NCBI RefSeq assembly: GCF_040807025.1
Contig: NC_090982.1
Coordinates: forward strand, 77,851,931-77,915,930
Length of the DNA stretch: 64,000 nt
Source: Struthio camelus
Taxonomy: Eukaryota > Chordata > Aves > Struthioniformes > Struthionidae
Reading direction: 5' to 3'
Made by a program: the position numbers and the translations under genes. The notes below the pieces were generated by a model. The model saw nothing but the letters and a program-made list of their open reading frames with translations, did not search any database and had not been told where the DNA came from. Positions 35,989 through 62,500 of the stretch are shown here, piece after piece. Numbering within the stretch: the first letter of the stretch is position 1; each line of letters opens with the position of its first letter.

Positions 35989-38826
35989 AGAGCGGGCTGC
36001 GGATCCGAATACAGCAGTGGCTAAGAATTGCTTGTGCTGTGCCTGCCTCTCTGTGTATTTGATCTCTCGACTTCCAGCGGGGACTGAATTCCTGTGCTGG
36101 ATTCTGGGCTCAGCTCTTGTGAAAGGATCCAATTATTTCAGAGCTTTGAGCATCTCCATTTGCTGCCCATATTTGCAGTGCCCGGGTCTGCGCTGGCTGG
36201 AATTCCGAGTGATTAACGTGACTGTGACATCCCTCCTAGGGGTGTTATCTTTGCTTGCTGTCCCCCACCGCCCCCCTCTTCCTCCTCCAGCAGCGAGCGA
36301 GCGAGACAGGCAGGCAGAGACAAAGGTCTGTCCTCAACCTGGGCTGTCCTCCCCGTGAGCGGCTGCTGCATGGGATTTCCCCCTCTGCGTGCTGCAGGTT
36401 TCGTGGGCTCCTGATTAACGTTGGAGCCGGGAGGCTGTATCGCTGAGGTTTGAGCCTGCTGGGCTGGGTGGGCAGGGGGTGCTGCCGGCTTTGGAGAGCT
36501 GGCTGATTGTCCTGCTGGATTTTAAGCTGCTTTTCATTCTTTGACTGTGCTTTTTCTGGGGAGAGGGGCAGCTGTGCATGGGGGGGAGGTTAGCATGGGG
36601 GGGGGGGTGTGGGAGGGTTGGACATGGGGGAAGAAAGCTGTACACAGGTGGCTGTTGTATAGTGGGGTCTGCCTGCAGACCCTGCAAGCCCCCCTTCCCA
36701 GCCGCAGGCTATTGTCAGCGTCTCTGTTTGCATGCGACGCACCGAGGCAAGGTGTGCGGAGGTTATCTGCGTGGGGTGTCAGAGCAGGGGGTGAGCCGCC
36801 AGGCCAGCAGCTCTGAGCTGCCGGGAGAGATTTCATTGTGTTATCGCAGGTTGGCTGAGTGGAAGGGCTCAGTCCCCACGTAGCCCCCTATGGCACCTTG
36901 TGCGTGGGCCTGGGGCTGGGAAGGCACCGTGCACCTCCGGGCAGACCTCAGCCCTCAGGGAGGCCAGGGAGCTAATGGGGTGTCTGGTCACTCAGGAGCC
37001 TGCTGGAGCCACAGCGAGGCTCCTTGCAGGGAGCCTGCTCTGTGCTCGGGGCTTCTGCACCCTGCTTTGGTGCACCGGGACGGTGTCCCCTCTTGCGGGC
37101 TGGGAGGAAGGGCAGCAGCAGCAGCACCTCCCTGACACGGGTGCTGCCAGGCAGAGGAATGTGTAGGGTTTGTCTCTGTCTAAGCTGCCCTTGAGGGTTT
37201 CTAGGAGCTTGCAGCTTCTAACATGGGCACTCCCTCTTGCCCCATGCTTCCCTTCTGGGCTTGGGCTTCCTCCCTGTTATCTGCACAGGGGCCAGCACTG
37301 AGCAAGGCTCTGCAGCTGCATAAATCTGGTACAGCAGGAGGCTTCCTTCTGAGGAGCCCCTGAGAGCAGTACTTGTCCCTGCAGTGGAGCAGGGATGCTC
37401 CCTCTCTGCATCATCTTTTTCTTTCCCCTCTCCCTTGTTTCCACCAAGTGTGGGCTTCTTCCTCCCTGACCCAAATACCAGGGGAGAGCCAGAGCCGTGT
37501 CTACTCCTTTCATCTCTCCCTCCAGGTACAGTTTGCTGCTGGAGCATCTCCCTCACTGGTTTCTCCACAGGAGTCCCACCTCTCCCATGGATAGTGCTAT
37601 AAGTGGTTTCCGTCTCTCTGCTGACTACGGTACATTTGGTCTTGCAGGCCGTGGAGAAACCGCTCTGATGGCAACATTGCTGTTGGTGCTGCCATCCTCC
37701 AGCAATGTGACGGAAACTTTCTGCCTGCTTCTCAAGCTCAGCTCTTAGCCTGTGCCAAGGAGCTCATGGTTTTACACTTCCACTGGTTAGATTTCCCCTA
37801 TTAAGTCTTTTTCTTGGGTTCAGACAGGATTGATGGAGCCGTGAGGTATCTTCCAAGCAGTCACAGTTTCCAGCAGTTTCTGTTGCCTCTTCTCTTGCCT
37901 TGTGCTCTGCTTGTACTGAGGCCGATCCCTTGCCTTCTTGTAAGGCCGCTCTCACTGCCGCTCTCTTTCCTTGCTCTGTGGTTCTTGCTTCACCCTGCAG
38001 GGAGGCTGGGAAGTTTTGGTCTCCTAAGCCCTTCCCAGGAGAGGGAGCAGGAGGGAGGCAGGCAGGGAAGGTCTGTTCAGGGATTCCTTCTCTGTGGTCT
38101 GAATGATGCGAGGCCGCTCTCGGCCTTGCTGGCCCCTCTGCGTGGCTGTCTGCCGCAGGCAGCAGGGCTCAGACCACAGTCTTCTGTCCCTTGGCCATGT
38201 GTCCGCTGACTTGCTGGTCTCTTTGGGAGACCTGTGTGGATTCCCACTGTGTGAGCTTGGCCCCTTTGGGCACAGCATTCCCTTTCCTCCTTGCGCCGGT
38301 GTCACACTGGTAACCCTGCTGGGCTCCCCTTTCCAAAGACTCTGCCTGTCCTGTCCCTTGGCATGGTGCAATACAGTTAAAATGGCAACAGATCCTTTTA
38401 CAGCTCAGAGGCTTTGGCTGCAGCCTGACGTACAGTACAGCTGCTGCATCGCCCAGCTGGGAACCCTTCCTCACCTGCCATCCTGCTCTCGTGCCGCCAG
38501 ATTGAGGCCACGGTCTGTTTATTGTGTCCCCCCGATGTGCTAATAGGAATGAAGCCAACAGGTAATCCAGGTCTGTGACCCTCAGTCCTGGCTGTACCAT
38601 CCTGCATCAGATGCTGGATGGGTCGGGGTCTGGTGGCTCAGTGTCACCAAGGCAGTGAAATGCAGTGTCTGTGCCCCAGCACCTGGGACGTGCTCCCTCC
38701 CTGCTGGTCCTCAGGCACTGAGAGTGTCCTGGCTGTTGAAGCCTAGTGCCCTTTCTCCAAGCTTGGCCAGGTGAGATGCAGAGAGGAAAGCTGCGTCCGA
38801 CATAGCTGTGGAGCCAGGTGCTAGGA

Positions 38827-38935
38827 GACCTTGGAGAAGTGGGGATGTGACCCTTGTGGCACTGCAGTGCCATAGAAGGGGACCTTGGAGATAGTGGGGA
38901 TGTGACCCTTGTGGCACTGCAGTGCCATAGAAGGG
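38827..38935 (+). repeat. Direct tandem duplication, about 54-55 bp, two copies
   Basis: The unit starting 'gaccttggagaagtggggat' at 38827 is repeated from 38881 with one inserted base ('gagatagtgg' for 'gagaagtgg'). Both copies share 'gtgacccttgtggcactgca' and end 'gccatagaagggga'. Near identity of the copies implies a recent duplication. Confidence 0.9.
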
Positions 38936-40563
38936 GATTCCACCTTCCTGATCACAGCGCTCCCTATCCTAGGCTGCCTGGCAGACCTCCAAGGGGATGT
39001 GCAAGGAGGTCCCTCCCACGGTGTATTTGTAGACAGAGGGAACCCTTTCAGGCTAGCGCTGGCCTTACCTGGTGACTGGCATTGAAATCTCAGCTGGGAC
39101 AGGTTTGTGGTGTCAGCGTGTCAGCCTCACCTGATGGACCTGTTCTCCTGAAACGCAGCTGCCTCTGGGGAGCAAATGGCTCAGCCCACCAGCACAAGGA
39201 CCTGGGAAGGGATGTGACCACAGAGGAACGCGAGAAAGAGAAAGAAATGACGCAGGTTGAAACTGCAGATTTGTCCCAGCATGGAGACATGCAGGAAGGA
39301 TGTGGCTTTCTCCAGCCATGCCATGCTGACTCTTTTGCTGCCAGCTGCTGACTTTGCTTCCCAGCGGTCGATTGTGCCCTGCAGGTTGTGGTACGAATCT
39401 CCCCCGGGGGTGGAAGAGGGAAGCAGCTACCTGGTGTAAGAGTTCTCCACCTTCCAGACAGGCAGAGCACAGTGAGTTAGCACCTCCACGTCCTCCCACG
39501 GTCCACAATTGTGGGTGTTCACCTGCTCTCCTGTGTGCCTTCATGCAGGCCCAGTGCAGGGTGCCAGGAGGAGCTGTCTTTACAAAGCCTCAAGGAGCTT
39601 GAGGCTTGAGATCGGACATTTGATGTGCCATGCTGTGGATTTGCCCTGCGGTGAGCGCTTCCAGGGAGCCAGCATATTGCTTCTGTGTCCTGGCTGATCC
39701 CTGGCGATGCTCTTCCTTTGGTACTGCTGGCAGTGGCTCTCGGGCTGACCTGCTCTCGGGGACTGGCTGCAAGTGCCTATTAATTACAGATGCCGTTGGG
39801 AATATAATGAAAGGCCAGGCCATTTCCTGGGGCAGCCAAGGTCAGCCCTGGTGCTGCAGTGAGCACTGCAAGAGACCTGCTGACACTAGGACTCCAACTG
39901 GAAAGATTTTGGGTTGCAGAATTTGCCATACTAAGGTGCCAGAATAGGGGGGCACTTGGGTGTTCGATGTTTCCAAGTATCCCTTCAGGGATTTTGTTCA
40001 TCTGCCTGGCCCTGCTGTTTCCAGTCCGGCCCTATGCAGCGGGGATTCTGGCTGGGTTGGGAAGTGGGGTGTGAACTTCTCTTATCTGGGTACTGATCTG
40101 CACCCTGCCTGGGGGGCAGTTGCTCAGGGAGACACAGGTTCTGTTGGGCCCCATGCTTCATGGAGGGATGATCTGACAGGGTGGCAAGAGATGGGCTTCG
40201 CACCCAGCCTAACCGGAGCCTGATGCATTGCGGAGAGTTAGGCGAGGCGATATAGGCCTAAGCTATGCCGCCTTTGGGATGGTGCTTTCGGTCAGGATGG
40301 CCAGCCAGCCAGGCAGCGACTTCCCTCTGGACAGCTGCTGCAGTGGACCCCCAGGCAAGGGCTGCACGGGGGGAGAGGTGGGGAGTGTGTGGGCCCTAAG
40401 GACGGGCAGCGCTGCCTCCTTTTGCCCCTGGGGCAACAAGGCTCATGGGCTGCCCCATGATGGAGGGGCTAAGGGAAGAGATTCCCAAGGGCTTCTGCCT
40501 GCTGTGAAGGTGTCATGTCGTAGGCTGCTGCCCAGGCTGACTCTCGTCCTTGCCCTCCCCCAG

Positions 40564-50760: not shown

Positions 50761-53700
50761 AGCGGGGGTGTGAAGGGCAGAGGTAGAGGCGGTGGGCTTC
50801 GTACCTCTGCTGGCCTCTGGGGAAGGTCGTGATGCCCGCACCTCCTCTGGAGTCCCTGCGGTCCGGGGCTCGTCCCTGTGGGCACAACCCACGTCCCCTC
50901 CCGGTGCGTGCTTGGCGGGGGCTCGACGCCGGTTCCTGCCCCGGTGCATCGGGGCTGGCAACAGCAAGCCCAGACAGGAGAGCACAGGCTGGAAGAGGGT
51001 TGTAGCCTGCGAGCAGCAAGGCTGCCCAGTGCAGCACACGGGCAGGAAGGGTTGCGCGAGCAAGTGGAGTCAGGCTCGTAGCTGCAGTTCTTCATCCTAT
51101 TCCTCTTCCTTTCTCCAGCGCTCCCAACAGCTGAAGCATTTAGCGCGGCTGGCCCCGGCGCCGCAGCGCTGGAACTCAGGCCTGCCCGTGAACATCGGAG
51201 TGCTCTTTGTGCCGCAGCAGGAGGCTTGGGTGGTGGAGAGGATGGGCAAGTTCCACCGAATACTCGAGCCTGTAAGGAGCCGCTTTTCTCCCCTTCTGGA
51301 TTCAGCAGGTTCCTATAGCTGTAGTGAGACATGTACTTTGCACGGGGACTTAGGGGATGGTTGGAGCACCTGCGTTTCTTCTTCTAGATTGCAATTCTTT
51401 TGATTGTCTGTGGTCTAATTTTCTTTGGTGGGCTATTGAAAGCAGTGAGAAACCTAAATTCTCCCTGTGCGCGAAGCATGCTTGTTCTGCCTGAAGTATC
51501 TGTAGCACGTAGTGCACTTGGGCTTTTTTTGCACAGCCTTTTCTAGTATGGCTGAGCTCTCTGGGTAGAAAAATATGGCCTGGTTTCTGGGCTCAGTGAT
51601 CTAATCTGAGCCTTAACTACTCTTCTTCTCCCAGGGTTTGAACTTTCTCATCCCTCTGCTGGATCGGATTCGTTATGTGCAGAGTCTCAAGGAAATAGTC
51701 ATTAACGTCCCAGAGCAGTCTGCCGTTACCCTGGGTAAGGAAAAGCTTCTTTGTCCTGCTCCTTTCCTTTTGCTGCATCTGGGAGGAGCAAGGGAGAGTG
51801 CAGGGAAGAATGGAAATGTCCCAGCCTCATACAGTCAGCCCTGTCCTTGGGGATCTGGTTTGACCGTACTAGTGGCATTGTGCCTGGAGGAACCCTAGGA
51901 GGTCCCTCTTGCCCTCTTCTCTGGGCTGCTGCTGCCCATTCTCAGCATGGGTTGAGTGGAGGTGGGCAGAAATTCGTTTTTCAGATCTCGGATGTTTTCC
52001 AGCATTGAACTAGGAAAAATCTGTCCTCAGTTTTTGTACAAGACCTGTAAAAATTTCAAATCTGTTTAATTGAGGTCTGTCTTTCAATTCCAGTATTAAG
52101 GGTTTTTTTTGTTTGCTTCTTTAGTATCTTAAGGTAACTACAGTATAAAATGTTTTGATCTGGAAACTTGAGACTTCTTGTGCGTAAAAACGTCAAAATG
52201 AGACATTTTACATGTAGTGTCAGTGCCTTTTTACGAAGCCTTTCACATCAGGAGATCCATTTGAGCTGCTCCCTCTGTCTATGCTGTGTTGCCGACACCG
52301 TGAAGGAAGGGGACGGCCCTGCCCAGCTCTGCTAATTCTGTCAGGGGAGGGAGCTTTTGCTGTTGCTTTACTTTGCTGCTCCATTGAGGGATATGCCATT
52401 CTTTCCTGGCAGATAATGTCACCTTGCAGATTGATGGTGTGCTCTATCTGCGGGTCATGGACCCTTACAAGGTACCGTCCCCGTTCTGCTAAGACCCATC
52501 CTAAACCTAGAGGCATGAAGCAACTTTCAGCCTCTGGGAGCCTGTGACTGCTCCAGGCCTGGTCTGTGTGTGGTGCGTCGCCCAGCCAGCTGCCTTGGCA
52601 GACCCTTGGGGGCAGCACGCCCAGCTCTCCTGGCTCACTTTTCTAAAACGTGCGCTTCAGCCTCTGTCCGACACGCTGTGCCCTGCGAGGCTGGGGGGCT
52701 GAGCACCCCGTTCCCTGGGGCCTCTCTGTGAGAGGGAAGAGGGGAAGGCAGATCTTGGCTCCAGGTTCTGCTTTTCCTTGGCAGGGGTGTTTGTGGTAGG
52801 CTTCTGGCCTTAGTGCTGTTTGCTGGTTCTGCCTCTTTGAGGGTCTCTTTCAGCACCCCCACAAATTCTTTTGTTTTTCCTGCTGTCCAGGCCAGTTACG
52901 GGGTGGAGGATCCTGAGTACGCAGTGACCCAGCTGGCCCAGACTACCATGAGATCTGAACTGGGCAAACTCTCCCTCGACAGAGTCTTCCGGGTGAGCTG
53001 GGGGAGGGGTCACGGAGCTGCCCGCTTGTAGCAGCATCTCTCAAATCCTTGCAGGGCCTGTGCGGACAGTCTGATGCACTTAACAGCAAAACTCCCTTCA
53101 CTTAACAGCAAAACTCCCTTTGCTTGGAGTGCTTCTGGCATCCTCTTCAGTTGGCCTGTCAGCATTGGACCCTTTGGGGATGGGTCTTGCTTCGATTGTT
53201 CTGTTTGATGGGAGCTGTTTTTGCTCTGTCCTGGGTTAGTCAGAAAAGACAATGGGTGGTGTGTGCCCAGACCCGGCTGATTTGGCTTTGTCCTTCTTGA
53301 GTCAGTGGCTCTTTGCTCCAGGCCCAGTGATGAGCTGGCTGGACCCGGCTCAGGGTATCTAAAACCCTTGTGCTGCGTATGTGGATAGAAGCAGGCGCTG
53401 TTTGTGCTCCTGGGAGGTGTTTATATCCAGATGTACACCAGATGTTTGCTTCTCACCAGTTCCAGCTTTGGGCACTGCCTGCCCCAGGAGAAGGCGACTC
53501 CTACTCGTGTGAAATGTGGGAAGAGCTTGGCCCTGCTTTGCCCCTGTGGAACTCGGGTTTTCTGGATGACCTTGGCCCATGAAGGGAGGTGTCTGACTGT
53601 TTCCCTTCTGACCCCTATCTCATGCTGCGCTCCTCTCTCTCCTCTCTGCCGTTTCTTTTGTGCCTCACAGGAGCGTGAGTCCCTCAATGCCAGCATTGTG

Positions 53701-56582: not shown

Positions 56583-57454
56583 GGAAATGGCACTGGTGCT
56601 GCAGCGCATCCTCCTGGCACTTGGGAGCGGGACCCGCTGTGTACTGGGGCAACGAGGCACGGTTTGAGACCGTGTCCATCCTAATCCTGCCGGTTGCTCC
56701 AGTGGCTGCATACGAAGGCATGATGGTCGGCAAGAGGAGCCCTGGGATCCGTCTCCGGGGATATGGGCTCCCCGTCGTGGCCGATTGAGTTCCTGCACAT
56801 CCTGAACCTGGCAGCCTTCGTCTGCTCGTTCTCGCGGTGCCTTTAGCTCTTGCTGTTATCACTCAGAGAACCCGGCCAGCCTCAGGGAAGCAAGAGGGGG
56901 CCGGTTCCGGTGTTAATCCTGAGCGATTAGTTTTGTCTCGGAGGTGTTCACCCACCTCCAGAGGGGAGCAGGCCGGGAATTTGGTTGGATTTAGCCTGGC
57001 TGAATGCCAGCGGCGAAGGAACAGCGAGGCCCTCGCAATGCCGAGGGACGAGTCCCCGAGGGCCACGAGAGCTGCTGCCCTGGAAGAAGAGCTCTGGGCC
57101 GAGACCAACTGGCCGGAGAGCGGACTTAGCCTGGAAAGTGGCTTTGTAAGAGCTGTGGGGGGCTCGGGAGCTGCCAGGCGGGTTAGGAACGGAGCTGAGC
57201 GAAGGTGCGTGGGACAGCGCAGGGCCCCGCTGCTGGGGTCGGTGCGCGGTCAGGGCCTGAGAGGAGACGCTCCCCCGAGCCTGGTTGAAGGGAGGGTGGA
57301 GGAAAGGAGAAGCCAGGGCGGGAAGGGCCACGCTCGCTGCTCGCCGCTCGGTGAAACAGCGATTTGGGCTCGGGCGTGCTGCGGCTCGGCGCCGTCGGGG
57401 GGGGGGGGGGGGGGGCGAGCCCGAAAGGGGGTGGGGGGGGAGCCCCGCGCCCGG

Positions 57455-57470
57455 CCGCCAGGGGGCGCTG
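57455..57470 (+). promoter_or_regulatory. Candidate CTCF-binding site in the PIGO promoter
   Basis: CCGCCAGGGGGCGCTG is a near-perfect forward match to the CTCF core (CCASCAGGGGGCGCT). It sits upstream of the minisatellite and about 100 bases left of the exon 1 donor. Binding is inferred from motif strength only. CpGs inside the motif make binding potentially methylation-sensitive. Confidence 0.6.
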
Positions 57471-57479
57471 CCGCCGCCG

Positions 57480-57568
57480 CCCGCCCGCCGCCGCCGCCGC
57501 TCTTGGCCCACGGCCGCGCGCGCGCTTCCGGCGGAGGCGGCGGCTCACGCCGGGCCCGGCGGCCGCAG
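57480..57568 (+). other. PIGO: PIGO non-coding first exon (start uncertain)
   Basis: A donor 'ggccgcag|gtggga' (GT at 57569-57570) ends the GC-rich stretch. The next acceptor with a recognised coding exon is at 59532. The exon contains no start codon in frame with PIGO, so it would be 5' UTR. Its left border is a guess within the CpG island. Confidence 0.4.
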
Positions 57569-57604
57569 GTGGGAGGGGAGCGCGGGGCGGCGGGGCGCGG
57601 GCCG

Positions 57605-58780
57605 TGCCGGGGGGCGGGAGGGGCGTCGGGGTGGTGGGGGTGTGCGGGCCTCCGAGGGGTGTCGGGGGTGGTGGGGGTGTGCGGGCCTCCGAGGGGTGTC
57701 GGGGGGCGGGAGGGGTGTCGGGGTGGTGGGGGTGTGCGGGCCTCCGAGGGGTATCAGGGGGGTGGGAGGGGTGTCGGGGTGGTGGGGGTGTGCGGGCCTC
57801 CGAGGGGTGTCGGGGTGGTGGGGGTGTGCGGGCCTCCGAGGGGTGTCGGGGGGGTGGGAGGGGTGTCGGGGTGGTGGGGGTGTGCGGGCCTCCGAGGGGT
57901 GTCGGGGGTCGGAAGGGGTGTCGGGGTGGTGGGGGTGTGCGGGCCTCCGAGGGGTGTCGGGGGTGGTGGGGGTGTGCGGGCCTCCGAGGGGTGTCGGGGG
58001 GGTGGGAGGGGCGTCGGGGTGGTGGGGGTGTGCGGGCCTCCGAGGGGTGTCCGGGGGTCGGGAGGGGCGTCGGGGTGGTGAGGGTGTGCGGGCCTCCGAG
58101 GGGTGTCGGGGGGGTGGGAGGGGCGTCGGGGTGGTGAGGGTGTGCGGGCCTCCGAGGGGTGTCGGGGGGCGGGAGGGGTGTCGGGGGTGGTGGGGGTGTG
58201 CGGGCCTCCGAGGGGTGTCGGGGGGCGGGAGGGGTGTCGAGGTGGTGGGGGTGTGCGGGCCTCCGAGGGGTGTCGGGGGGCGGGAGGGGTGTCGGGGGTG
58301 GTGGGGGTGTGCGGGCCTCCGAGGGGTGTCGGGGGGCGGGAGGGGTGTCGGGGGTGGTGGGGGTGTGCGGGCCTCCGAGGGGTGTCGGGGGGCGGGAGGG
58401 GTGTCGGGGGTGGTGGGGGTGTGCGGGCCTCCGAGGGGTGTCGGGGGGCGGGAGGGGTGTCGGGGGTGGTGGGGGTGTGCGGGCCTCCGAGGGGTGTCGG
58501 GGGGCGGGAGGGGTGTCGGGGGTGGTGGGGGTGTGCGGGCCTCCGAGGGGTGTCGGGGGGGCGGGAGGGGTGTCGGGGGTGGTGGGGGTGTGCGGGCCTC
58601 CGAGGGGTGTCGGGGGGCGGGAGGGGTGTCGGGGTGGTGGGGGTGTGCGGGCCTCCGAGGGGTGGTGGGGGTGTGCGGGCCTCCGAGGGGTGTCGGGGGG
58701 CGGGAGGGGTGTCGGGGTGGTGGGGGTGTGCGGGCCTCCGAGGGGTGTCAGGGGGGCGGAAGGGGCGTCGGGGTGCTGGT
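57605..58780 (+). repeat. G-rich minisatellite in PIGO intron 1 (22 core copies, main period 56 bp)
   Basis: The core 'gcgggcctccgaggggtgtc' (with minor changes) recurs 22 times. Positions of 'cctccgag' are 57649, 57686, 57741, 57797, 57833, 57889, 57943, 57981, 58037, 58093, 58149, 58205, 58260, 58316, 58372, 58428, 58484, 58540, 58597, 58652, 58680 and 58735. The main spacing is 55-57 bp. Shorter spacings of 36-38 bp and one of 28 bp mark copies that lack one sub-unit ('ggggcgggaggggtgtcg'). The array lacks stop codons in most frames and so produces long Gly/Arg/Val-rich frames on + and Pro/His-rich frames on -, none accepted as coding. Runs of G on one strand give strong quadruplex potential. 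Confidence 0.97.
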
Positions 58781-59470
58781 GCTTTCTAGGGCTCCGAGGG
58801 GTGTCGGGGTGCTGGTGATGTCTGGGGCTCCAAGAGGTGTTGGGGGGTGGGAGGGGTGTCGGGGTGCTGGCAGTGTCCGGGGCTCCGAGGGGTCTCAGGT
58901 GGGTGAGAGGAGTATCGGAGTGCTGGGACGTTGCTGTGCTGGACAAGGGGTTGGGGGGGGTGTGCAAGGGGCCTGGCGGGTGGGAGAGTTGTCAGGCTGC
59001 CCAGCGGTGGCTGGGGGGTACAAGGGTGGCTGAGGTGCAGTGTGGCGGCTGGGGTGTAGGAAGGGGAATAAGGAGACCCGCTGGTTAGTCAGGGAGATTG
59101 GGGTTGTAAGGGTTGTTAGGGTTGTTGGGGAGTACGAGAGATGACAGGGCACAGCGTGGTGACTGAGGGGCAGGAAGGGTGTCAGGGTGCTGGGTGGTGG
59201 CTCTGGGGTAGGAGGGAGGTTGGGGATGAGGGTAGCTGGGGATTGGAAGGGTGTTGGGGTGCTAGGTGGTGGTTGGGGGTACAAGGGGTGGTGGTTGGAG
59301 ACTACGCAAGGTGTCAGGCAGTAACCCAGCGAGTATGAGGGAGGCTGGTGTCAGGGCAGAGGATGATGGCTGGGGGGGCTCTGAGGAGTATCAGGGCACA
59401 GCAGGATGTGAGGGGTGTTAGGGTGCAGGACAGTGCAGGGATGGGGGGCGACCAGGTTCTGGCAGGGGCA
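58781..59470 (+). repeat. Decayed right flank of the minisatellite
   Basis: To the right of the regular array the same words persist in degraded form: 'ggggctccaagaggtgttgg', 'ggggctccgaggggtctcag', 'gtgtcagggtgctgggtggt', 'gtgttggggtgctaggtggt' and 'gggtgttagggtgcagg'. Spacing becomes irregular and identity falls toward 59470, just before exon 2 of PIGO. I read this as older copies of the same array. Confidence 0.7.
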
Positions 59471-59533
59471 GGTTGGGGGTACCTGGCCCAGATTGACCAT
59501 CGGGGGCTGAATGTTCCTGTCCTTCCCTGCAGG

Positions 59534-62500
59534 ATGCAGCGGTGGCCAGTCCTGCTCTTCCTGGCCTGGGTCTGCTTTCTTTTCTTTGCTGGTATCGGGC
59601 TCTTCATGAGTGGCTTCCTGCTCACCCGGATTGAGCTTGCCAACAGCAGTTCCTGCTCAGACCCCCTCACACCACCACCTTGGGACAGGCAGAGCCTCCC
59701 GCCGGGCTCCTGCTGGATGCCCCAGCGCTTTTCTAAGGCTGTGCTAGTCATCATTGATGCCCTCCGGTTTGAGTTTGCCTGGTTCAACCCGGCCAATGTG
59801 AGCCCACTGCCATATGAGAACAAGCTGAGTTTCCTGCACCACCTAGCAACCTCCCAGCCCCGTCATGCCCGCCTCTACCGCTTCCGAGCCGATCCCCCCA
59901 CTGCCACCATGCAGCGCATCAAGGGCCTCACCACCGGCTCGTTGCCGACTTTCATCGACGTGGGTAGCAACTTTGCCACCTATGCAATCCAGGAGGACAA
60001 CCTGCTGGCACAGCTGGTGCAGAACGGTATGTGTGCTGGGGGTGGAGTCCGGCTGGGAGAGGCCATGCATAAAGCCCAGGTCAGCATTTGTGTGGGACCT
60101 TTAATCCTCTCTTCCCCTGGGAAGGGGACCGGGTGCAACACCTCAACCCTTTCACTCAAGGGTCCTTGGCTGAAGACCACAGGGGTCTCAGTCAGCGTGG
60201 TCACGCAGGCAGGGTTTCTCTGCCTTGTGCTGGGGGTGAGAGGCAGCTGTAACCTTGGGTAGAATTTCTTCAAAGACAATGAGAGAACAGGTAATAACAG
60301 CCGTACTAATGGTGACTGTTGCAAGGTCACCGCCAGGAGCCGCTCTGGGAAGCCAAGGGCATTGCCAATCAGTCGTGTTTGCATTCAGGTGAGATGCACA
60401 AGGCGGGAGGAGCCGGTGCCAGGTACGCTGTGGAGGTGTCACGCAGGCAGCAGGCCTGCCCAGCCAGCCGCCTGCGAGTGTTAGGCAACTACCTTATCTC
60501 ACTCTCTATGTAATTTGGTGCTGCATGCATATATTTAGAGAGCGCAGCTTTAAAGAGCATCTTGTTAGGGTGGGACGATGGAGTAGAGAAAAAGGGACAG
60601 GGTGCAGTCCTGTGAGACCCAGAGAGATTCCCTTCCAGGGCTCCAGCTGGCACAAATACCAGTAGTGCCTGTGCCTAGGATGGGGTGACACTACTGAGTT
60701 GTCAGCTCCCCATGTACGAGGGTAAGATGGGCAAATGCAGTAAATCATCAGTAGTGAAAAATGCTAGAAGGAAACCCCGTGCTGTAGCAGCAGCTGCAGA
60801 GGAGACAGTTCCTGCTCCCAAACTGAAATCGCTCTGAAATCCCGGAGGGGGTAGCTGGCAATAGGTAGGAGAAGCAGAGTGAAGACAATTGGAAACATCC
60901 GTGCTTTTGCCTTCTCTGCATTTGCAAAACCACTGCTGTCGTGTTTAAAGTCTGAGCCTAGGACTGAAGGCTTCTGCCCAGCCCCTGTCTGTCTGTAGCC
61001 ATCTTTTGTCTTGTATTCTACAGTGTGACTGTGAGGCCTTTGGTTTGAGACAGGAGGGTTCTTTCCTGCGCTTCCCTTCGTAAGTGCTGCAGTGATACAA
61101 ATAAGTAACTTTTTAGCCTGTTCAATCCATGGATCTTTCAGCTGAGGGGACATGTCAGAGCTTAATGATAGGTGATGAGGTTGAGCTGCTGGATTTGGTG
61201 CTGGGACCACTTGTAGGCTTAGGAACAGGGCTAACCGTTCCCCACATTCAGATTTGTTGACAACCAGCTGGAGTTTTTAATTGTCAGTCACTTCAAGTGT
61301 GGGTGGGAGAAGAGCTCCAGACCCTGTCCTGGATCTGCCCAGACTCTTTGCACTAGTGTGGATATGAGCATGACTCCAGCAGGCTCCTTGCTCTGATTAA
61401 TTCCTTTCTTGCTTCCCCAGGAAGGAGAGTGGTCTTCATGGGAGACGACACTTGGGAAGGACTCTTCCCCAATAAGTTTTTCCGCTCGTATTTCTTCCCT
61501 TCTTTTAATGTGAAGGATCTTCATACTGTGGATGATGGGATCCTGCAGCATCTCTATCCAACTGGTAAGCAGCTCTTCCCCAGGGGCCAGCTGCACCTTT
61601 ATGTTATGCTGGGGTCCTAGTGCAAATTTGGGGTAGAACTGAAGAGTTTTTTCTTTTCTGGAGTGGCAGCGGGCAGTCATACCTGCTTGTGGCTGTAGCC
61701 CATGGACTACAGTGCCCTAGCTGGATTTCCACAGATAAGCCAGCTTTCAGGGATGACAAGCCATTTCTCTAAATGCCTCTCCTCCATTTGGGAGAGGACA
61801 CAGCTTGTTAGGACTCGTCCACAGTTTAGGCTTCTATAGCTGTCCTAGAAATACACTGCTAGGATGGAGCAGGAAGGACGTCTCTTTCTTCAAACTTAAC
61901 CTTGAAGGGGCCATTTGATCTGTGGCTGCCTGGGCAGGCCCACAGTGCTATAGGAAATACTCACCTGGAGCAGCTACTGGAGTGGGAGGCTGACGCACAG
62001 CACTGCTCTCAGCAGGATATTTGTGGCTCCCAGTCTTGGGGAGAGGGTGAAATGTGACACTGGTGTATGAATTTTAGGTAATTTCAGACTTCTCTTTGAG
62101 GCCCTAGGACTAAGGGGAACGCACCTTGTTTAGTCTGTGTATAAATCTAAGTAAACAAAGATTGCAATGGTCTTTCATGAGGAAGGTGGAAAAGTTGCCC
62201 CAGTGGTGAGTTCCACCTTGTGGGAGAAATGCAATTAGTCATTTAACTGCAAATAAGTTGGTTCTCATGTGTGGAGATCCTGGAGCAAACAGGAAGGGCC
62301 AGAAGTAACTTAATAGATGAGGACAGTCTTGGTGCACCAGGCCCTTGTCCTGGGTGGGACACGAAGGGGCACATTGATGAGTCTGACCTAAAACGTCTCT
62401 GGGAAAGGGCTGGAGTTCTGAGTTCTCCTTTTCCTGACCCTCTCCTTGGTTTAGCTCGGTTTGTCATTCTGAGTTAAGTGTATTTCAAGGTAACTTGGGT

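Follow-up and report, generated by a model that had tools for sequence, protein, structure and literature searches.

A probably unstable G-rich minisatellite with a stable fossil tail in the putative first intron of a PIGO-like gene

We analysed a stretch of 64,000 nucleotides (the window), in which a G-rich tandem array lies between a likely promoter and the start of a PIGO-like coding region (Table 1). The open reading frame begins with an ATG at 59534, directly after the inferred acceptor, and we take it to be PIGO-like from its resemblance to PIGO. It gave no significant match in Pfam or PDB; the Phosphodiest family stayed below the cut-off with an E-value of 0.18 for the joined exon pieces. 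The upstream neighbour is STOML2-like as judged by a Band_7 hit (E-value 0.00019), which with 22 bits is also below its cut-off of 23.6. The limits of intron 1 are set by the donor CAG/GTGGGA at 57568/57569 and the acceptor TCCTTCCCTGCAG ending at 59532, and we infer that the intron hosting the array is intron 1 of PIGO. Another donor-like sequence (CAGGTGGGTGAG, 58896–58907) is located within a diverged repeat copy. The CpG island contains a CTCF-like sequence (CCGCCAGGGGGCGC, 57455–57468), the sole match to that pattern on both strands of the window, and an ETS-like match at 57525; a second CTCF-like pattern had no match in the window. The consensus forms of both factors are presumed ones.

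Table 1. Features of the array and its surroundings (positions within the window).
Feature	Position	Strand	Basis
Likely promoter CpG island and putative non-coding exon 1	57340..57568	+	CpG o/e 1.02
Putative PIGO intron 1, 1964 bp	57569..59532	+	donor, acceptor, following frame
Array core, 5' portion with variants of A and B	57604..58042	+	unit parsing, C40 comparison
Marker run of units B5 A4 B3 A4, once per homologue	58043..58154	+	C40 comparison
Uniform block of 586 bp, mainly B19+A37 units	58155..58740	+	unit parsing, C40 comparison
Diverged copies at the 3' edge	58741..58930	+	nhmmer
Fossil repeat, CpG-poor, weak 19/38-bp periodicity	58931..59298, may reach 59396	+	profile search
PIGO-like gene, region of the first coding exon	59534..60025	+	translation

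An earlier reading of the locus, made from the sequence only, had described 22 near-perfect copies with a main period of 56 bp next to the CpG island. The array core indeed adjoins the island, and both the number of copies and the period were confirmed. The 12-mer GCGGGCCTCCGA occurs exactly 22 times within 57644–58741 (first start 57644, last start 58730); its 21 spacings are 55–57 bp in 17 cases, 36–37 bp in three and 28 bp in one. A TRF run on the window recovered the array at 57604–58671 with a period of 56 bp, 19.2 copies, 89% matches and a score of 1301. The comb score at period 56 was 16.9, compared with a maximum of 2.8 among 150 dinucleotide shuffles.

The repeat unit is a composite of an A unit of 36 or 37 nt, AGGGGTGTCGGGG(G)TGGTGGGGGTGTGCGGGCCTCCG, and a B unit of 19 or 20 nt, AGGGGTGTCGGGGGGCGGG plus variants. 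Both are arranged head to tail and mostly alternate, giving a minisatellite of 22 copies of a 56-bp A+B unit. Splitting 57604–58930 into A and B units yielded 44 pieces, with full A units side by side at three places and one A unit shortened to 28 nt. The regular core extends from 57604 to 58740, and the 3' end of the span given previously (57605 to 58780) falls inside the first diverged copy. The term near-perfect describes 58155–58740 well, where we counted 1 mismatch and 13 gap positions in 586 bp (nine of these being one deletion) relative to the consensus. It is less fitting for 57619–58154 (14 mismatches and 14 gap positions in 536 bp), although this count is inflated because the consensus is that of the 3' half. 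In 58741–58930 the differences amount to 28 per 100 bp. The units may contain a sub-theme of 18–19 bp opening with GGGGTGT. Since three pairwise similarity scores between sub-units were reached by 1, 10 and 48 of 500 shuffles, an ancestor of 18–19 bp is only suggested.

The + strand of the core consists of 64.6% G, 16.6% T, 14.9% C and 4.0% A, in agreement with the description of one strand as almost pure G/T/C. The GC skew is about 0.6 across 57601–59400, while the best 1-kb window starting outside 56600–59500 has a skew of 0.27. With regard to an R-loop-forming, GC-skewed CpG island, we found 56 RIZ-like motifs (presumed pattern) together with this skew. The CpG o/e ratio changes from the island value (Table 1) to 0.92 in the core, 0.64 in 58741–58930 and 0.25 in 58931–59532. 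Of 80 CpGs counted at three positions of the unit 79 are intact, and the CpG site of the B unit is kept as CG in 14 cases and reads TG in four. The intact CpGs of the core may reflect its youth rather than a lack of methylation.

The quadruplex potential predicted for the array is confined to the + strand. The G4Hunter mean of the core is 1.89, and on the + strand 1114 of its 1137 nucleotides fall within G3+N1-7 motifs (core shuffles average 618 nt), compared with none on the - strand. The first such motif starts at 57571, the third nucleotide of the putative intron. Given this intron, G4 motifs stand at the 5' end of a first intron on its nontemplate strand. A short-loop motif is formed by a B unit together with the first G-run of the A unit that follows. 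Its loops measure 4, 1 and 1 nt, with slight variation in three motifs with a seven-G run and in one more. The motif occurs 14 times in the core (mean 2.9, maximum 8 in 200 shuffles) and recurs with the unit as in CEB1, though not at every unit. No copy of this motif was found in 58741–58930 or 58931–59532; elsewhere in the window, outside the intron, there are two on the + strand. In G4-aware folding the A unit alone was more stable (-30.2) than its shuffles (-18.4, sd 8.8), while the B unit alone was not. The combined AB unit (-35.5) did not exceed the stability of 50 shuffles matched in composition (-38.6, sd 10.8).

Beyond the core the repeat continues in a degraded form. An nhmmer search with a profile of the core detected three diverged copies (58761–58812, 58797–58848 and 58852–58901) with E-values from 6e-4 to 2.4e-6, and no significant match beyond 58901. 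A second profile, built from these three copies and the core consensus, matched the tail at 59249–59298 (23.6 bits), 59177–59222 (15.9 bits) and 59347–59396 (11.3 bits). In 100 dinucleotide shuffles its best score was 17.9, and the summed score reached 46.3 at most, compared with 70.5 for the real sequence; among the tail matches only 59249–59298 beats all shuffles. Further matches at 59411–59438, 59110–59149 and 58945–58960 (7.4 bits or less) lie at the shuffle level (mean best score 7.8). We therefore set the firm limit of the tail at 59298. Outside intron 1 the best score of the second profile on both strands of the window was 10.6. These searches firmly support repeat-derived sequence over at least 57604–59298, about 86% of the putative intron. 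The autocorrelation of the tail peaks near lags of multiples of 19. The signal of 58931–59470 was reached by none of 300 shuffles, but by 14 of 300 when the stretch was started at 59000. In seven other non-core stretches 7, 12, 43, 44, 67, 84 and 240 of 300 shuffles reached the signal, with other best periods.

The same genome (a 1.45-Gb assembly) contains a second copy of the array. The window lies on contig C41 and the second array at C40:58360736-58362362, in a stretch that matches the entire window with 123 differences at 60840 gaplessly compared sites (0.20%). The two flanks of the array differ at 17 of 7545 sites and at 8 of 4468, respectively. We counted 12 net length shifts of at least 5 bp along the window, the array showing the largest (305 bp between anchors) and the next one measuring 55 bp. 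The latter falls at a 55-bp tandem repeat with two copies at 38823–38937, where C40 is 55 bp shorter and appears to hold one copy. Close to a run of 19 G in the CpG island (57397–57415), window and C40 differ in length by 9 bp within 57361–57421.

The putative intron 1 has a length of 1964 bp in the window and 2274 bp on C40. A run of units, B5 A4 B3 A4, occurs once in each homologue, and both have the same junction into the diverged copies; from the single occurrence of the run and its order we regard the two runs as probably homologous. The sequence 5' of the marker run measures 474 bp in the window and 1260 bp on C40, which is 786 bp longer. On its 3' side a block of 586 bp in the window corresponds to 110 bp on C40, followed by 792 bp in both homologues. 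Six exact B19+A37 dimers were counted in the 586-bp block, and C40 has one such dimer at another place. The block would represent an expansion private to the window chromosome or a loss on C40. C40 in turn carries, within its part corresponding to 57604–58042, a private 205-bp block; the first three units of this block occur three times at a spacing of 205 bp and are absent as a run from the window. The tail (58930–59532) aligns without gaps and with 2 mismatches in 603 bp. Since each homologue has its own blocks and the tail is of equal length, the core changes by blocks, whereas tail and flanks hardly change.

The copy number of the array thus varies between two homologous contigs of one genome: 22 A units in the window correspond to 29 on an otherwise almost identical sister chromosome with flanks differing by 0.2%. 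This identifies the repeat as real and fast-changing and supports the hypervariable length suggested by the sequence-only reading, in a comparison covering two chromosomes of one genome. C40 and C41 may be a pair of avian sex chromosomes, perhaps the little-differentiated Z and W of a ratite. In the contig order small contigs (C34 with 1.3 Mb, C37 with 0.85 Mb) stand before the large C40 (70.4 Mb) and C41 (at least 77.9 Mb), and this numbering suggests 39 autosomes followed by two sex chromosomes. The argument on length variation would hold equally well if the two contigs were unmerged haplotypes of a single chromosome.

The array resembles several known systems. The INS VNTR is a G-rich, promoter-near repeat with a GGGGTGT theme, which our array appears to share; its 14-bp unit and its locus differ. 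Similar to human CEB1, whose unit has 39 nt as printed in PMC3630100 (37 in our A unit), G-runs are parted by 1-nt loops, a C-containing spacer follows and copy number changes in blocks. Sequence and locus are different from CEB1, the unit here is a 56-bp composite, and the instability was seen between homologues. First-intron G4 elements of the nontemplate strand were described by Eddy and Maizels in 2008, as cited in PMC3630100. In our case the G4 likewise lies on the nontemplate strand and begins with the third nucleotide of the putative intron, but those elements are single motifs and here we find a 1.1-kb array. Introns filled with G4-capable tandem repeats have been described for bird genes in PMC6792250 and PMC12954441, so that the novelty proposed for the array is weak as far as its kind is concerned. 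An open-access literature search found no paper containing both PIGO and minisatellite. In our view the array is real and changes fast; it belongs to a known type of repeat and does not represent a new mechanism.

Based on these results we interpret the locus as a G-rich intronic minisatellite close to the promoter that is unstable in its young, fast-changing core and stable in its fossil 3' tail (probability about 0.8). The most economical account of its turnover would be slippage or gene conversion provoked by quadruplexes or R-loops. Transcription through the G-rich strand would open R-loops or G-loops, and quadruplexes could lead to stalled replication or breaks. Blocks of units would then be added and removed by slippage or unequal gene conversion, diverged copies would leave the exchange and decay, and the array would be removed together with the intron by splicing. 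This account rests on work on CEB1 in yeast, where short, pyrimidine-containing G4 loops destabilise the minisatellite (PMC5491262), and on the G-loops that form at transcribed G-rich strands (PMC3630100). The number of short-loop motifs does not track array length, since the intron on C40, with the longer array, has 9 of them and the window 14, a point against this account. The loss of the motif in the tail may be a consequence of decay and not its cause. The array is probably for the most part a by-product of mutation, and an effect on the output of PIGO is possible.

A further-reaching version is rather doubtful in our opinion. According to it, most of the first intron would have been built by one long-lived, self-renewing minisatellite beside the promoter. 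Units keeping the short-loop quadruplex and the CpGs would continue to expand, each homologue gaining blocks of its own, and would extend the CpG island by 1.1 kb; units leaving this zone would lose both and become stable, ordinary intron. Should C40 and C41 be Z and W, the array would also be a fast-evolving marker between sex chromosomes that are 99.8% alike in this region.

By itself the array is one more G-rich intronic VNTR. Young, changing and fossil, unchanging units of one repeat adjoin here, and the comparison of two homologues tells the mobile part from the rest: differences in the core amount to blocks some hundreds of base pairs long, those in the flanks to 0.2% of sites. The array therefore offers a convenient natural system for testing why a minisatellite remains unstable.

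Turnover could alternatively be driven by meiotic recombination at the promoter CpG island, acting through unequal gene conversion, instead of by quadruplex replication. We take this possibility seriously without favouring it, and meiotic conversion at the promoter would be compatible with the quadruplex and R-loop account. PRDM9 was not found in the birds and crocodiles sampled in PMC5519329, and according to this source recombination in birds and canids, which are without PRDM9, is concentrated at transcription start sites and CpG islands. The array abuts such an island, the gains and losses of blocks inside it fit conversion, and PMC12954441 names conversion-type recombination as an alternative for its introns. 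The changes have no common polarity, however, because the uniform block lies 3' in the window and the private repeat 5' on C40; we therefore rejected a simple polarity from the promoter. The sequence stuttering of avian introns, which PMC12954441 describes for chicken dot chromosomes, is an improbable explanation despite clear similarities. Here too imperfect, GC-rich tandem repeats fill an intron that differs in length between homologues, by 15.8% and hence above the 10% allele criterion of PMC12954441. The assembly, whose contigs range from 225 Mb to about 1 Mb, also looks bird-like. In contrast, the window chromosome is large and not a dot chromosome, intron 1 is the single affected intron in the window, and TRF detected no further large array there. 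A seed derived from exon 1 or exon 2, an occasional feature of stuttering, was rejected, as the respective scores were reached by 139 and 228 of 300 shuffles.

It is more improbable still that the array is a selected regulatory element, with KLF/SP-like sites and G-runs acting as an enhancer or splicing enhancer or with an R-loop keeping the island unmethylated. GGGTGTG occurs 22 times in the core (mean 3.5, maximum 9 in 300 shuffles), as expected of one motif per repeat, and the intron has 19 G-runs within its initial 150 nt. In humans, correlations between VNTR genotypes and expression include a case in the first intron of DPYSL4 (PMC8096271), and an intronic VNTR of ABCA7 correlates with exon skipping (PMC5954066). 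On the other hand, GGGCGGG is with 12 occurrences no more frequent than in shuffles (mean 11.4), and copy numbers that are one third apart between homologues argue against a tight length constraint. An assembly artefact in one or both copies, finally, is very improbable. G4-rich repeats sequence badly (PMC6792250) and the exact copy number could still be off, but two separate contigs carry the array, the order of rare variants is common to both at the edges with private blocks inside, and the window contains no N.

Three other readings were rejected. A coding function does not fit, because the period of 56 shifts the reading frame and the open reading frames follow composition. With regard to an origin from a transposable element, the repeat search of 1–57500, which would miss old diverged elements, returned a low-complexity family rich in GC, a tandem pair of 45 nt and a GC-rich inverted pair, and nothing else. 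A CR1-tail pattern, in the form we presume, had no match. As to an RNA gene, we found no tRNA and no Rfam match at gathering score.

On other contigs of the genome weaker matches to the array have identities of 68–79%. Two G-rich arrays identified by TRF, with a 19-bp unit (L011 3109-4403, contig C1) and an 88-bp unit (L012 3040-4115, contig C34), have the GAGGGGTGT theme in common with the PIGO unit. A 31-bp G-rich satellite that shares GGGCCTCCGAG with it fills L013 1-7000 (C3) and L014 1-9000 (C21) with 225.8 and 290.3 copies. When the 19-bp, 88-bp and 31-bp arrays were aligned with the PIGO unit, 0, 0 and 2 of 500 shuffles of the unit reached the respective scores; as these arrays were picked as the best matches of the whole genome, the scores do not establish common descent. 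The junction of the units had no exact match in collections of genome contigs and viral contigs, both of which are without vertebrates. Within the window a perfect tandem duplication of 22 bp is located at 53077–53120.
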